Shown in pieces: positions 1,715 through 5,008 of a DNA stretch of 5,008 nt. How positions within the stretch are numbered: the stretch's first letter is position 1; each line of letters opens with the position of its first letter. The position numbers were made by a program, and so were the translations under genes. The notes under the pieces were generated by a model that saw only the letters and a program-made list of their open reading frames with translations, searched no databases and was not told the DNA's origin. Source of the DNA: an uncultured bacterium (GTDB taxonomy: Bacteria > Patescibacteriota > Minisyncoccia > Phycocordibacterales > UBA1006). The stretch covers positions 1 through 5,008 of the forward strand of contig CAIQMU010000001.1 in assembly GCA_903873095.1 (NCBI GenBank), written 5' to 3'.

Positions 1715-2860
1715 ATGAAACGACTTGTATCTCTTGGATTAACGATTGCTGTACTTGGTATTTTTTTCATGCAACCAGTACATGCCCAAGTTGCCGATGG
1801 AACAACTACTCCTGATGCAACTATTGATTCCCAAGGAAATCCTATAATACCCTCAACAACAGATGCCACATCGACTGGTACAGCTACTAATGGGGCTACC
1901 ACAAGTACAGATCAAATCCCTGCTGATCTTTCAAGTTACGACTCATCAACCAACGCAAGTGATATTGATGCAAATGTAAACCCACCTAACCCAGGGTCAT
2001 TCACAACGATTACTGTAACACTTGATAGTAATATCGTGGATCTTCGTCGCTACATGATAAATTGGTATGTCGATGGAGCATCAGTTGGAGGAGGAATAGG
2101 AAAATACACACTTCTTGCAAAGACAAAAAATTATGGACAGACAACCAACATTCGTGCAACCATCGCCCTTGATACAGGAATAATCACCAAGGATGTTTCT
2201 TTGACCCCTGAAGATATGACTATGATGTGGGAAGCTGTTGATGCATACGTTCCACCATTTTATCAAGGGAAAAAACTACCCGGGCGTGAATCTATTATCA
2301 AAGTAGTAGCCATTCCAAATTTTATTTCAAATAACACAACCATTGACCCGTCAAATGCTGTTTACAATTGGCAACGAAATGGAAACGTTGTTGAAAATGC
2401 GAGTGGATATGGAAACGATACGTTATTGATTAAACAAAACATGCTTAATGCAAACGAGCAAGTCGAAGCAACAGCAAGTGATGTTACGGATAATATTCAG
2501 GCCACCGGAGATATTACCGTTCCTATATTTAATCCAAAAGTTTTATTTTATTCAATAGATCCAATGACTGGCATCAAATCTTCTATTGCACAATCAACTA
2601 TTAATTTTAATACTCCTTCCACTAATATTGTTGCTGAGCCTTATAACTTCTCAGTCCTTAATAATAATCCCAACAGTCTTTCATTTACCTGGACAATGAA
2701 CGATAATCCTATTACGATTGCCGATGCAAAAAATCAAACACTTCTTGATTTACAAAATCCAGGAACGTCTGGGTTTGCAACAATTGGTGTTTCTGCAACA
2801 AATCCACGAACACAGTTTCAAGAGGCTGAAAATTCACTGAGTGCGATATTTAATCAATGA
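1715..2860 (+). CDS. Secreted protein with three Ig-like repeats, T4SS-locus associated
   Basis: I do not recognise a named family. The 381-aa product has a clear signal peptide: KR at 2-3, a hydrophobic core 4-19, and VHA at 22-24 followed by Q25. Residues 26-88 are a Thr/Ser/Ala/Asp-rich, probably disordered linker. Three Ig-like (beta-sandwich) repeats follow. Each has a core Trp before a turn (INWYVDG W117, YNWQRNG W219, FTWTMND W326) and, 15-17 residues later, the tripeptide TLL (132, 236, 342), then a last strand such as VEATASD. The Trp spacing of 102 and 107 residues sets the repeat length. There are no cysteines, no second membrane helix and no sorting signal, so it is probably released or held by protein contacts outside the membrane. 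The frame is open back to a GTG at 1682, but that lies in the terminator arm; the ATG at 1715 starts directly at the signal peptide. It ends on TGA, 18 nt before the next gene, with which it probably shares an mRNA. A role as adhesin or pilus scaffold is inference. Confidence 0.85.
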   Translation: MKRLVSLGLTIAVLGIFFMQPVHAQVADGTTTPDATIDSQGNPIIPSTTDATSTGTATNGATTSTDQIPADLSSYDSSTNASDIDANVNPPNPGSFTTITVTLDSNIVDLRRYMINWYVDGASVGGGIGKYTLLAKTKNYGQTTNIRATIALDTGIITKDVSLTPEDMTMMWEAVDAYVPPFYQGKKLPGRESIIKVVAIPNFISNNTTIDPSNAVYNWQRNGNVVENASGYGNDTLLIKQNMLNANEQVEATASDVTDNIQATGDITVPIFNPKVLFYSIDPMTGIKSSIAQSTINFNTPSTNIVAEPYNFSVLNNNPNSLSFTWTMNDNPITIADAKNQTLLDLQNPGTSGFATIGVSATNPRTQFQEAENSLSAIFNQ

Positions 2861-2878
2861 TTATTAATGTATTAAATT

Positions 2879-4711
2879 ATGACTAAAAAAAAATACATAC
2901 TATCAATAGCCTCGTTTCTGATTATATTTGTTGGTCTTTTAGGTTTTTTGCGAGTTGTTCATGCGGGGGGTGTTGGTGGTAGTTGGGCTGATAACGCGTG
3001 CCAAGTTACATCAGCAACATTTGATGCAGGGTCTACACCACCAGGACTTACGTGGGGGCAAAAAATAACTATCAAAGGAGTACAATATGATTATTGGCCT
3101 AAGTATTTTCCCCCATCACCCTTAGTGATTAATATCGCAACACAAAACTGTGCAGGTAAAAGAATTTTTGTCCAATTATTTTCTGATTTCGACAACAGTA
3201 CACACGCACCGCAACGTTTAAAGATCGAAGGGGTTCCTGATGATTCCGATGCTAGTAATATTGGAGACGGTCTCGGTGGAGCAATGAAATTTATCGTTCC
3301 TTCCAATGAGCAATTTTATATTAATCTTAAAACCGGTAACACTCTTTGTAACACTCTTGGTAAATCTCCTGACTGCTCCTACTATATTGGAGCAGGACCA
3401 GTACTTCCAACCATGGAAGAAGCAGATGATGGTAGTTTTAATATCAGCCCTGATGATTATTATTCAAAGTACTCTATAACACCAAACAATGGGAAAGTTC
3501 CCATTTCTAATGGAAAAATTGCCTACAACTGTACCTTGGATTCTACTGGATTAACTTGTGCTAATGGTTATCCTTGGCAATATGTTTCTGATACGAGCGA
3601 TCATTCTGGTAACACAAACAATGTTACACTCCAAGGAAAAGGTACAACTGACTCTTGTACAGGAAAAACGGGAGATTGTTACCAGCTCTATGGTGGTCTA
3701 ACTGATATTTTTGGTGCACTTGGTACAAAATTATCAAGTATCACCCAAGCAAACGATTTAGGATCATTCCTAAACGCAATTATTGCAATTGCAATTGGTG
3801 TTGCTGGTGTCATTGCCGTACTTCGTATTATGTACCTCGGTGTTATTTACATGCGTAGTGACAAGGTAACTGAAAAATTAAGTGTTCGTGGTGCGATTAT
3901 TCAAACAGTCGGTGGATTTATTCTTCTTTTGTTGGTGTACACAATCCTGCGAACCATTAATCCGGATTTGTTGAATTTAGTACCGAATATTAATGCTATT
4001 TCTGTAATCTCCCCGGCTCAATACCAAGCAATAACGGGACAACCCGTACCAACAGCTTCACAATTATCACAAGATGCAAACGCAGCAGCCACAACAGCAG
4101 GTGTTCCTCCTTGTGCAATCCAAGCGATTATGCAGCACGAATCTAAGGGTCAAGCAAATGTTATTGGTAATGATGCAAACGCATGGAGTGTACCAAACAT
4201 TGCTTCGCGTAAAGCGTTTGTATTGTCAGGTATAAAATATAGCGGAACGACATTTACTCCAAATATCAGTTTGTATGGCGATAAAAATACCAATGATGAT
4301 GATGCCTTAAATGCGGCTGCAGCAAATCCTTCCGACAAGAATCTTACAGGATTAGACTGGCGATTCAGTCATGGTGTTGGCGCATTACAAATAACATTTT
4401 ATCCTGCGGATTATCCCAAAACCTATGCTGCTAACTGGAATCCTCCCATGTCAGAAAAAGATACACCCCCTGCACCAAGAAGTCTTGGGGGTTCACAGCC
4501 TTACTATCCCGCAGACATGCTTGATCCCGTGAAAAACACGGAGGCTGGTGCATATCTTCTTGCGCAAGGAATAAAGACATGTGGTAATTTAACTTCTGCG
4601 TTTGAAACATTTAACTCCGGAGGATGCGGATCCTCATCATCACCATCAGCATACGTACAAAATATCACCCAATCGTACAATACTTGCTTAGCAGGTCAAC
4701 CAAGTAGTTAA
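2879..4711 (+). CDS. Exported fusion: Cys-rich domain, VirB2/TrbC-like helix pair, lytic-transglycosylase-like domain
   Basis: The 610-aa product has a signal peptide (KKK at 3-5, hydrophobic 7-24, VHA at 27-29). Residues 30-280 form an unrecognised, probably beta-rich domain with eight cysteines (41, 91, 157, 166, 218, 227, 260, 267). Two membrane helices (about 299-325 and 339-357) flank a basic loop (MRSDKVTEKLSVRG); this resembles VirB2/TrbC-type pilins. Positive-inside logic puts the loop in the cytoplasm and both flanking domains outside. After a Gln/Ala/Thr-rich linker (about 383-407), the C-terminus resembles SLT (VirB1-like) lytic transglycosylases, which cleave the glycan strands of peptidoglycan: AIMQHES with candidate catalytic E421, GVGALQI (499-505) in place of GxxGLMQ, LDPVKNTEAGAYLL (548-561) and FNSG (578-581) in place of YNAG. 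The segments between these motifs are longer than usual. Four more cysteines (412, 568, 583, 603) lie here. No Shine-Dalgarno precedes the ATG; an 18-nt gap to the Ig-repeat gene suggests one operon. The helix pair and SLT motifs are visible; pilin polymerisation and enzyme activity are inferred. Confidence 0.85.
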   Translation: MTKKKYILSIASFLIIFVGLLGFLRVVHAGGVGGSWADNACQVTSATFDAGSTPPGLTWGQKITIKGVQYDYWPKYFPPSPLVINIATQNCAGKRIFVQLFSDFDNSTHAPQRLKIEGVPDDSDASNIGDGLGGAMKFIVPSNEQFYINLKTGNTLCNTLGKSPDCSYYIGAGPVLPTMEEADDGSFNISPDDYYSKYSITPNNGKVPISNGKIAYNCTLDSTGLTCANGYPWQYVSDTSDHSGNTNNVTLQGKGTTDSCTGKTGDCYQLYGGLTDIFGALGTKLSSITQANDLGSFLNAIIAIAIGVAGVIAVLRIMYLGVIYMRSDKVTEKLSVRGAIIQTVGGFILLLLVYTILRTINPDLLNLVPNINAISVISPAQYQAITGQPVPTASQLSQDANAAATTAGVPPCAIQAIMQHESKGQANVIGNDANAWSVPNIASRKAFVLSGIKYSGTTFTPNISLYGDKNTNDDDALNAAAANPSDKNLTGLDWRFSHGVGALQITFYPADYPKTYAANWNPPMSEKDTPPAPRSLGGSQPYYPADMLDPVKNTEAGAYLLAQGIKTCGNLTSAFETFNSGGCGSSSSPSAYVQNITQSYNTCLAGQPSS

Positions 4712-4805: not shown

Positions 4806-5008
4806 ATGATGCCGAATGAACCACGTTATAGTTTAAAAAAAATAATTATCGGTGGAATTATCTTGATTATTATTGCCATTATTGTTGGAATTGTTTTGAT
4901 GAAACGATCAGAAAATCAACTTAATACCAACCAAGGGAAAAATTTATTTCCCTATGGAACAACATCAACAGGCGGAACAAGTAATTCACCAAGTGGACAA
5001 CAAGGAAC
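4806..5008 (+). CDS. Small N-terminally membrane-anchored protein, 3'-truncated by window edge
   Basis: An open frame of 67 full codons runs off the window, starting MMPNEPRYSLKK (two adjacent Met codons, either could start). A very hydrophobic Ile-rich helix spans residues 13-32, flanked by KK at 11-12 and KR at 33-34. After it come a polar stretch (about 35-48), LFPYG (47-51) and a Gly/Ser/Thr/Gln-rich, probably disordered tail. There is no signal-peptidase-like site, so this is more likely an uncleaved anchor than a signal peptide. It has its own promoter after a strong terminator, so it is a separate transcription unit next to the T4SS-like genes. The family is not recognisable from this fragment. 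An accessory envelope component of the same machine is possible but unproven. Confidence 0.75.
   Translation, partial: MMPNEPRYSLKKIIIGGIILIIIAIIVGIVLMKRSENQLNTNQGKNLFPYGTTSTGGTSNSPSGQQG

Follow-up and report, generated by a model that had tools for sequence, protein, structure and literature searches.

In Patescibacteria, genes for VirB2-like pilins lie near virB4, arrays of 2-11 pilin genes occur, and few VirB1 homologues are found (excerpts of a 2025 survey, PMC12102498); in the same excerpts the VirB2 pilus was inferred to need no VirB1, and other glycosidases were allowed for. T4SS genes, predicted pilins included, were essential in Southlakia epibionticum, the one patescibacterium tested (excerpt of PMC10633639), and the role of the T4SS in Saccharibacteria was called completely unknown in an excerpt of a 2024 review (PMC11665869).

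The 610-aa protein described here (the fusion protein) resembles known proteins of several kinds. Like VirB1, EtgA, TraG of pIP501 and PrgK (T4SS or T3SS), it has an SLT fold and an ES-motif Glu and is exported, and its gene lies near virB4 within a T4SS operon. The known VirB1-type enzymes are separate proteins, either soluble or carrying other wall domains, whereas the enzyme of the fusion protein forms a tail on a VirB2-like helix pair and varies in type among relatives. With the VirB2-like pilins of Patescibacteria (PF18895) it shares the helix pair, the basic loop, the phylum and the gene neighbourhood; the VirB2/VirB1 section of PMC12102498 mentions no enzyme domain on pilins, in contrast to the 610 aa with an enzyme found here. 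The helix pair was also matched weakly (E=6e-4, below the curated cut-off) by NCBIfam NF045849, the Mbov_0395-family pilin-like conjugal transfer protein of mycoplasma ICEs; this model has 80 positions and so describes a small protein, unlike the fusion protein.

A constant chassis with an exchangeable tip that meets the partner cell is found in the PilV shufflon (IncI plasmid R64) and in phage tail lysins. PilV belongs to a type IV pilus, as a minor pilin whose tips are adhesins, whereas the fusion protein joins a T4SS-type helix pair to enzymes. A pilin-hydrolase fusion was named in none of the titles or abstract openings listed by the literature search (supplements and subscription papers were beyond the scope of this search).

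The contig and the fusion protein

The window (the whole stretch of 5008 bp that was analysed) is one entire contig of a patescibacterial genome of 656,782 bp (122 contigs, 91% complete). Its features are specified in Table 1. The operon fits the Patescibacteria T4SS (MPF-FATA-like): the VirB4 encoded beside the fusion gene is of that clade and scores above the CD1110-family cut-off, and PrgI is encoded in homologous loci. Pfam and NCBIfam searches returned no family above cut-off for ORF2, which is as constant an operon neighbour as the fusion gene. A second, non-identical copy of ORF4, also with PG_binding_1, was found at the start of another contig of the same genome (C118) and is followed by dnaA; where it overlaps positions 4872-5008 of the window (137 nt), the DNA identity is only 82%. 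Two strains, or two copies of the operon, may be present in the bin.

Table 1. Features of the window (all coordinates in nucleotides of the 5008-bp contig)
Feature	Coordinates	Strand	Basis or remark
VirB4, C-terminal part, truncated by the contig start	2..1666	+	NCBIfam CD1110-family VirB4-like ATPase, 355.4 bits (cut-off 325); PF19044
ORF2, exported protein, operon neighbour	1715..2860	+	helix-pair ORF directly next in 34/41 loci with a homologue
Fusion ORF, 610 aa	2879..4711	+	beside virB4
Signal peptide, residues 1-29, likely cleavage after VHA	2879..2965	+	sequence; helix 2-23 in the model; cleavage site judged by eye
Exported N-terminal domain, residues 30-293, 8 Cys; ~40-218 Ig-like in the model	2966..3757	+	
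VirB2-like / T4SS_pilin-like helix pair, residues ~294-360	3758..3958	+	weak profile matches, homologues, model helices 294-326 and 330-360
Basic inter-helix loop, residues 326-337 (RSDKVTEKLSVR), predicted cytoplasmic	3854..3889	+	sequence; positive-inside rule
Motif ILRTINPDL, residues 356-364, most conserved stretch of the family	3944..3970	+	alignments
Lytic-transglycosylase-fold domain, residues 391-610	4049..4708	+	
Predicted catalytic Glu421 (IMQHESKG)	4139..4141	+	aligned with the ES motif of MltE
ORF4 start, membrane protein with a single hydrophobic helix, first 67 codons, truncated by the contig end	4806..5006	+	homologues in L008 and L185 with PG_binding_1

An earlier note, made from the sequence of the window, had proposed that a VirB2/TrbC-like helix pair and a VirB1-like enzyme are combined in a single polypeptide. 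The Pfam searches and the structure model agree, and it is confirmed that the 610-aa ORF joins a VirB2-like helix pair and a domain of lytic-transglycosylase fold. As in the note, both large domains are predicted to lie outside the membrane.

Of the traits of VirB2-type pilins, the fusion protein has the signal, the two helices and the basic loop; its size is 610 aa vs ~100. Against T4SS_pilin (PF18895) it scored 15.7 bits (E=0.016), below the curated cut-off of 26.6, and 21.6 bits in the genome search. Homologues scored above this cut-off (P0010, 29.9; P0016, 39.4; L012, 31.2; L013, 36.0; L014, 36.3 bits), and T4SS_pilin was matched at E<=0.01 by 31 of the 35 proteins that occupy the same operon slot (see below). 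The fusion protein had no Pfam match to VirB2/TrbC (PF04956) at E<=1; this family matched 7/35 slot proteins at E<=0.01 (best 6e-4), and its match in the genome of the fusion gene sits on contig C106, below cut-off. By way of these homologues the helix pair is grouped with T4SS_pilin, and not with an unrelated membrane family. Contig C106 (L001/L003/L004/L006) carries three tandem T4SS_pilin matches, two of them above cut-off, in exported proteins of 150-586 aa; these proteins are without the TINPDL-type core of the fusion protein.

Residues 391-610 scored above the cut-off of the SLT profile and have a lysozyme-like fold, as the earlier note had expected of the C-terminal part. The fusion protein is the sole SLT-family match in its genome (91% complete), with a modest score of 20.4 bits in the genome-wide search. 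Glu421 aligns with the ES motif of MltE, whose Glu is the catalytic residue of that enzyme, and is the predicted catalytic residue of the fusion protein; a long insertion separates it from the GALQI motif. The ES/ET-motif Glu was kept in all the SLT-type slot tails inspected.

Tails of the family across the phylum and in the operon slot

The relatives of the fusion protein were collected as follows: a search of 5.8 billion proteins returned 20 rows, the fusion protein itself included. Among these the helix pair with ILRTINPDL was constant; the N-terminal part was repeated in some and absent in others, and several rows had an SLT C-terminus, with NlpC/P60 at the C-terminus of P0017 and P0020. 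Residues G346, I356, L357, T359, I360, N361, P362 and L364 were invariant in alignments of 16 and 17 rows, and the same columns were also invariant in the 23 rows from which a core profile (A2) was made. Of the 379 Patescibacteria genomes searched, 366 had a match to this profile with E<=1e-5 (motif IL[RK]TINPDL). In an order-wide search, a profile of the family matched 195/297 genomes at E<=1e-15; among the matches listed, near-full coverage was obtained only for the genome of the fusion gene and for the same-genus genome G570, and the match of G599 spanned the core and the SLT domain.

For the analysis of tails, 100 regions were taken from the top of a ranking by likeness to the core alignment (the best core match of each of 100 of the 365 other matching genomes) and 20 further regions were the top matches of the order-wide search, so that both samples are biased towards likeness to the window. 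The 100 regions gave 89 core ORFs with a tail of at least 120 residues, 83 of which matched T4SS_pilin (Pfam, E<=1e-3) and 50 of which matched NF045849 (E<=0.01). Their tails matched SLT (8), Peptidase_C39_2 (4), SLT_3 (2), NlpC/P60 (2) and M23 (2), counts that may overlap, with one each of GH18, Amidase_2, Amidase_5, M15, GDSL lipase and others (Pfam, E<=1e-3); many of the 89 long tails had no Pfam family at this threshold. An H/D/H zinc-ligand pattern was found in 20 of 99 tails. A profile made from these 20 tails matched hedgehog N-domains in the PDB (E=1.8e-8), whose fold is common to DD-peptidases, and in the alignment of these LAS-like tails the H/D/H ligands were invariant, except in one row at the last His.

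Some single loci are recorded here as well. In L069 (8844-10412) a core ORF has a tail that was assigned by eye to GH18-like glycoside hydrolases (one GH18 was counted among the 89), and L055 (5284-13397) holds three big tandem core ORFs (768, 844 and 1012 aa) with repeat-like tails, the first of which matches PKD. The NCBIfam family 'CPR_pilus_PamR, pilus system RbmA-like protein' matched 2/89 core ORFs; a paper on CPR_pilus_PamR was not found in the literature search.

Gene order was read by script in 135 loci, 56 with VirB4 and 41 with an ORF2 homologue (L019 and L054, which lie on one contig and are both without ORF2, are both among the 135). A core ORF was found directly after ORF2 in 34 of these 41 loci; L184, which is the same contig as L008, was left out of the slot count. 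The common order, judged by eye in many loci, was: VirB6-position protein, PrgI, a ~210-aa protein, VirB4, ORF2, core protein and ORF4, followed in many loci by yidC, rnpA, dnaA and dnaN. The ~210-aa protein was placed as TrsD, a name taken from its position and from excerpts of PMC12102498. In L185, Pfam confirmed PrgI, YidC and the PG_binding_1 of ORF4; the large VirB6-position protein had no Pfam match.

Typed by Pfam and by eye, the tails of 35 slot proteins (window included) were SLT-type (10), NlpC/P60 (4), LAS zinc-peptidase-like (9), NPGN-type (1), short (8), other (2) or cut by the contig end (1). By Pfam only (E<=0.01), the counts, which may overlap, were SLT 7, SLT_2 2, SLT_4 1, NlpC/P60 4, M15_4 1, VanY 1 and Extensin-like_C 1. 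Membership of the LAS class, and in part that of the SLT class, therefore depends on motifs; in 10 of the 34 labelled loci the LAS or other type was given from motifs judged by eye. In the comparison of fused and split versions that the earlier note proposed, 24/35 slot proteins carry a likely wall hydrolase as a fusion, with the typing partly by eye. Around the eight short-slot loci, 102 neighbouring ORFs matched 42 Pfam families, the first 25 of which included no wall hydrolase.

The gene 3' of the fusion gene (ORF4; L008 11751-13322, L185 7484-8971) encodes one helix and PG_binding_1. With a profile made from these two, PG_binding_1 was detected in 9/32 ORF4s: 9/23 at loci with an enzyme tail, 0/8 at short loci and 0/1 at the other type (Fisher p=0.04, the loci being related and their kinship uncorrected).

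The note had further suggested a membrane platform that replaces several T4SS subunits. This is not supported: PrgI and other T4SS genes are still present in the homologous operons, the genome of the fusion gene has the three more T4SS_pilin matches of C106 (two above cut-off), and in 8/35 cases a short helix-pair protein without a large tail fills the same slot. The fusion gene is better described as a pilin-type gene with an exchangeable enzyme than as several merged subunits.

Enzyme exchange, rates of change and tandem genes

Identities were compared between operons with closely similar VirB4. Between the window and L008 they were 95% for VirB4, 69% for ORF2, 42% for the N-terminal domain, 82% for the core and 38% for the tail; between the window and L010, 93% for VirB4, 44% for ORF2, 35% for the N-terminal domain and 54% for the core. 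The tail is SLT in the window vs NlpC/P60 in L010, despite the 93% identity of VirB4. Similarly, L189 and L190 (one genus) have VirB4 proteins of 86% identity and tails of SLT plus NlpC vs VanY-like. The DnaA encoded on C118 is 85% identical to that of L008. The exposed parts change much faster than VirB4. Other exposed proteins are fast too (L008 vs L010: ORF4 47%, VirB6-position protein 35%), with YidC at 70%, so that what sets the fusion protein apart is its change of enzyme type and not its speed. Any surface protein is expected to change fast in its exposed domains (e.g. under phage pressure), which is by itself no pointer to a host wall.

The distribution of tails was compared with a VirB4 tree of 33 loci, in which only 10 of 30 inner branches were starred; the tree omits L009 (contig without VirB4) and L192 (cut slot gene). 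The numbers of changes were 8 for SLT (shuffled mean 8.1), 4 for NlpC/P60 (3.9), 7 for LAS (8.2; as low in 108/500 shufflings) and 5 for the short form (7.4; as low in 10/500). For all groups jointly, 16 changes were counted; the shuffled mean was 19.3, and 6/200 shufflings gave a value as low. Enzyme type is therefore nearly scattered over the tree. The short form clusters, which is the main reason why the tails taken together depart from a random distribution.

In genome G535 (L189, 7055-11562), two tandem slot genes are identical over 1566 nt (522 aa), with similar bases upstream, and then diverge into SLT (E=1e-6) vs NlpC/P60 (E=9e-6). Core pairs of at least 90% identity were found in 10 genomes (L189, L194, L107, L108, L204, L205, L206, L213, L214 and G465, i.e. 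L221/L222), and these are not a random sample, because regions were chosen for like-scored matches within one genome. An extra pair (L019 and L054, one contig) is cut by the contig end. The tails differ in 9 of the 10 genomes, the exception being G465 with two similar short tails. Both members of the pair were typed as wall enzymes in four genomes (L189, L194, L108 and L214), each with a glycan cutter and a peptide cutter, the glycan cutter of L214 being a weak match (E=0.0043, below cut-off) and three of the four peptide cutters being typed by motif only. Four cases are no proof that the paired enzymes are complementary.

Probable placement and target of the enzyme

The enzyme is fused to the helix pair, the gene lies beside virB4, and the C-terminal domain is exchanged among relatives. 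The reading that we prefer, at a probability of about 0.45, is that of one exported membrane protein by which a wall cutter is held at the T4SS and opens host peptidoglycan at the contact site. The signal peptide would export the N-terminal domain; the helix pair would then insert with its basic loop inside, so that the enzyme emerges outside and both large domains probably lie beyond the membrane. Like VirB2, the helix pair would dock in the channel or pilus of the T4SS. Gene order is most naturally read as a sign that wall opening is tethered to this machine, as the earlier note had proposed. If the T4SS recognises the conserved TINPDL-bearing chassis, whichever enzyme follows, glycan cutter or peptide cutter, would be placed where the machine meets the wall, and both cuts would be available wherever tandem genes combine one chassis with two different enzymes. 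The likely target is the wall of the host: in favour of this are the swapping of enzyme types among operons whose engines are almost the same and the dependence of cultured Patescibacteria on hosts (excerpts of PMC10633639 and PMC11665869). The PG_binding_1 domains of ORF4 homologues and the status of the fusion protein as the sole SLT match of its genome also count for the preferred reading. Several points weigh against this reading: the T4SS_pilin match of the fusion protein itself is below cut-off, and pilus building by PF18895 proteins is itself putative; a 610-aa subunit misfits an ordinary pilus lattice unless special pleading is used; and the tails are jointly non-random on the VirB4 tree.

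Use on the cell's own wall is a real rival, and ranks close behind host-directed use. Here the enzyme would be a VirB1 in cis that opens the cell's own peptidoglycan for T4SS building, and the helix pair would just hold it there. This possible explanation matches the known job of VirB1-type enzymes (excerpts of PMC12102498), the status of the fusion protein as the only SLT match of its genome, and the PG_binding_1 domain encoded by the next gene in relatives; alone, however, it accounts neither for the switch of enzyme between operons whose VirB4 proteins are 93% identical nor for the eight of 35 slot proteins that have no enzyme tail and near which the first 25 Pfam families (of 42, from 102 neighbouring ORFs) included no wall hydrolase. 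We consider it unlikely that the protein is an ordinary Gram-positive VirB1-type enzyme encoded after virB4, anchored in the manner of PrgK or TraG, with a helix pair that only resembles a pilin. The PrgK gene does lie directly 3' of the VirB4 gene, and the pilin score of the fusion protein, below cut-off, would suit such an anchor. Gram-positive T4SS also have VirB1-type hydrolases with extra domains (excerpts of PMC12102498). Yet the conserved part is the helix pair and not the enzyme (core 82% and tail 38% between the window and L008), in 8/35 cases the slot is taken by the helix pair on its own, in a short protein, and 31/35 slot proteins match T4SS_pilin at E<=0.01. That the exposed domain is a dead enzyme, an adhesin which binds wall sugar or peptide and does not cut it, is very improbable: the long insertion between Glu421 and GALQI, the modest SLT score (20.4 bits) and several tails at other loci with no recognisable enzyme would fit, but the ES/ET Glu is present in every SLT-type slot tail inspected and the H/D/H ligands of the LAS-like tails are invariant save for the last His of one row.

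A broader version of the host-directed reading is doubtful at present: T4SS would carry exchangeable wall-cutting tips on one VirB2-like chassis, with glycan and peptide cutters swapped by recombination within operons and matched to the host wall, tandem genes would deliver both cuts, and the tip set would help to decide which hosts can be breached.

A T4SS pilin-type gene with an exchangeable wall enzyme would give the T4SS of these bacteria a concrete, testable job: wall opening at the contact site. An enzyme hidden on the pilin would also be an alternative answer to the inference, made in the excerpts of PMC12102498, that VirB2 pili need no VirB1.
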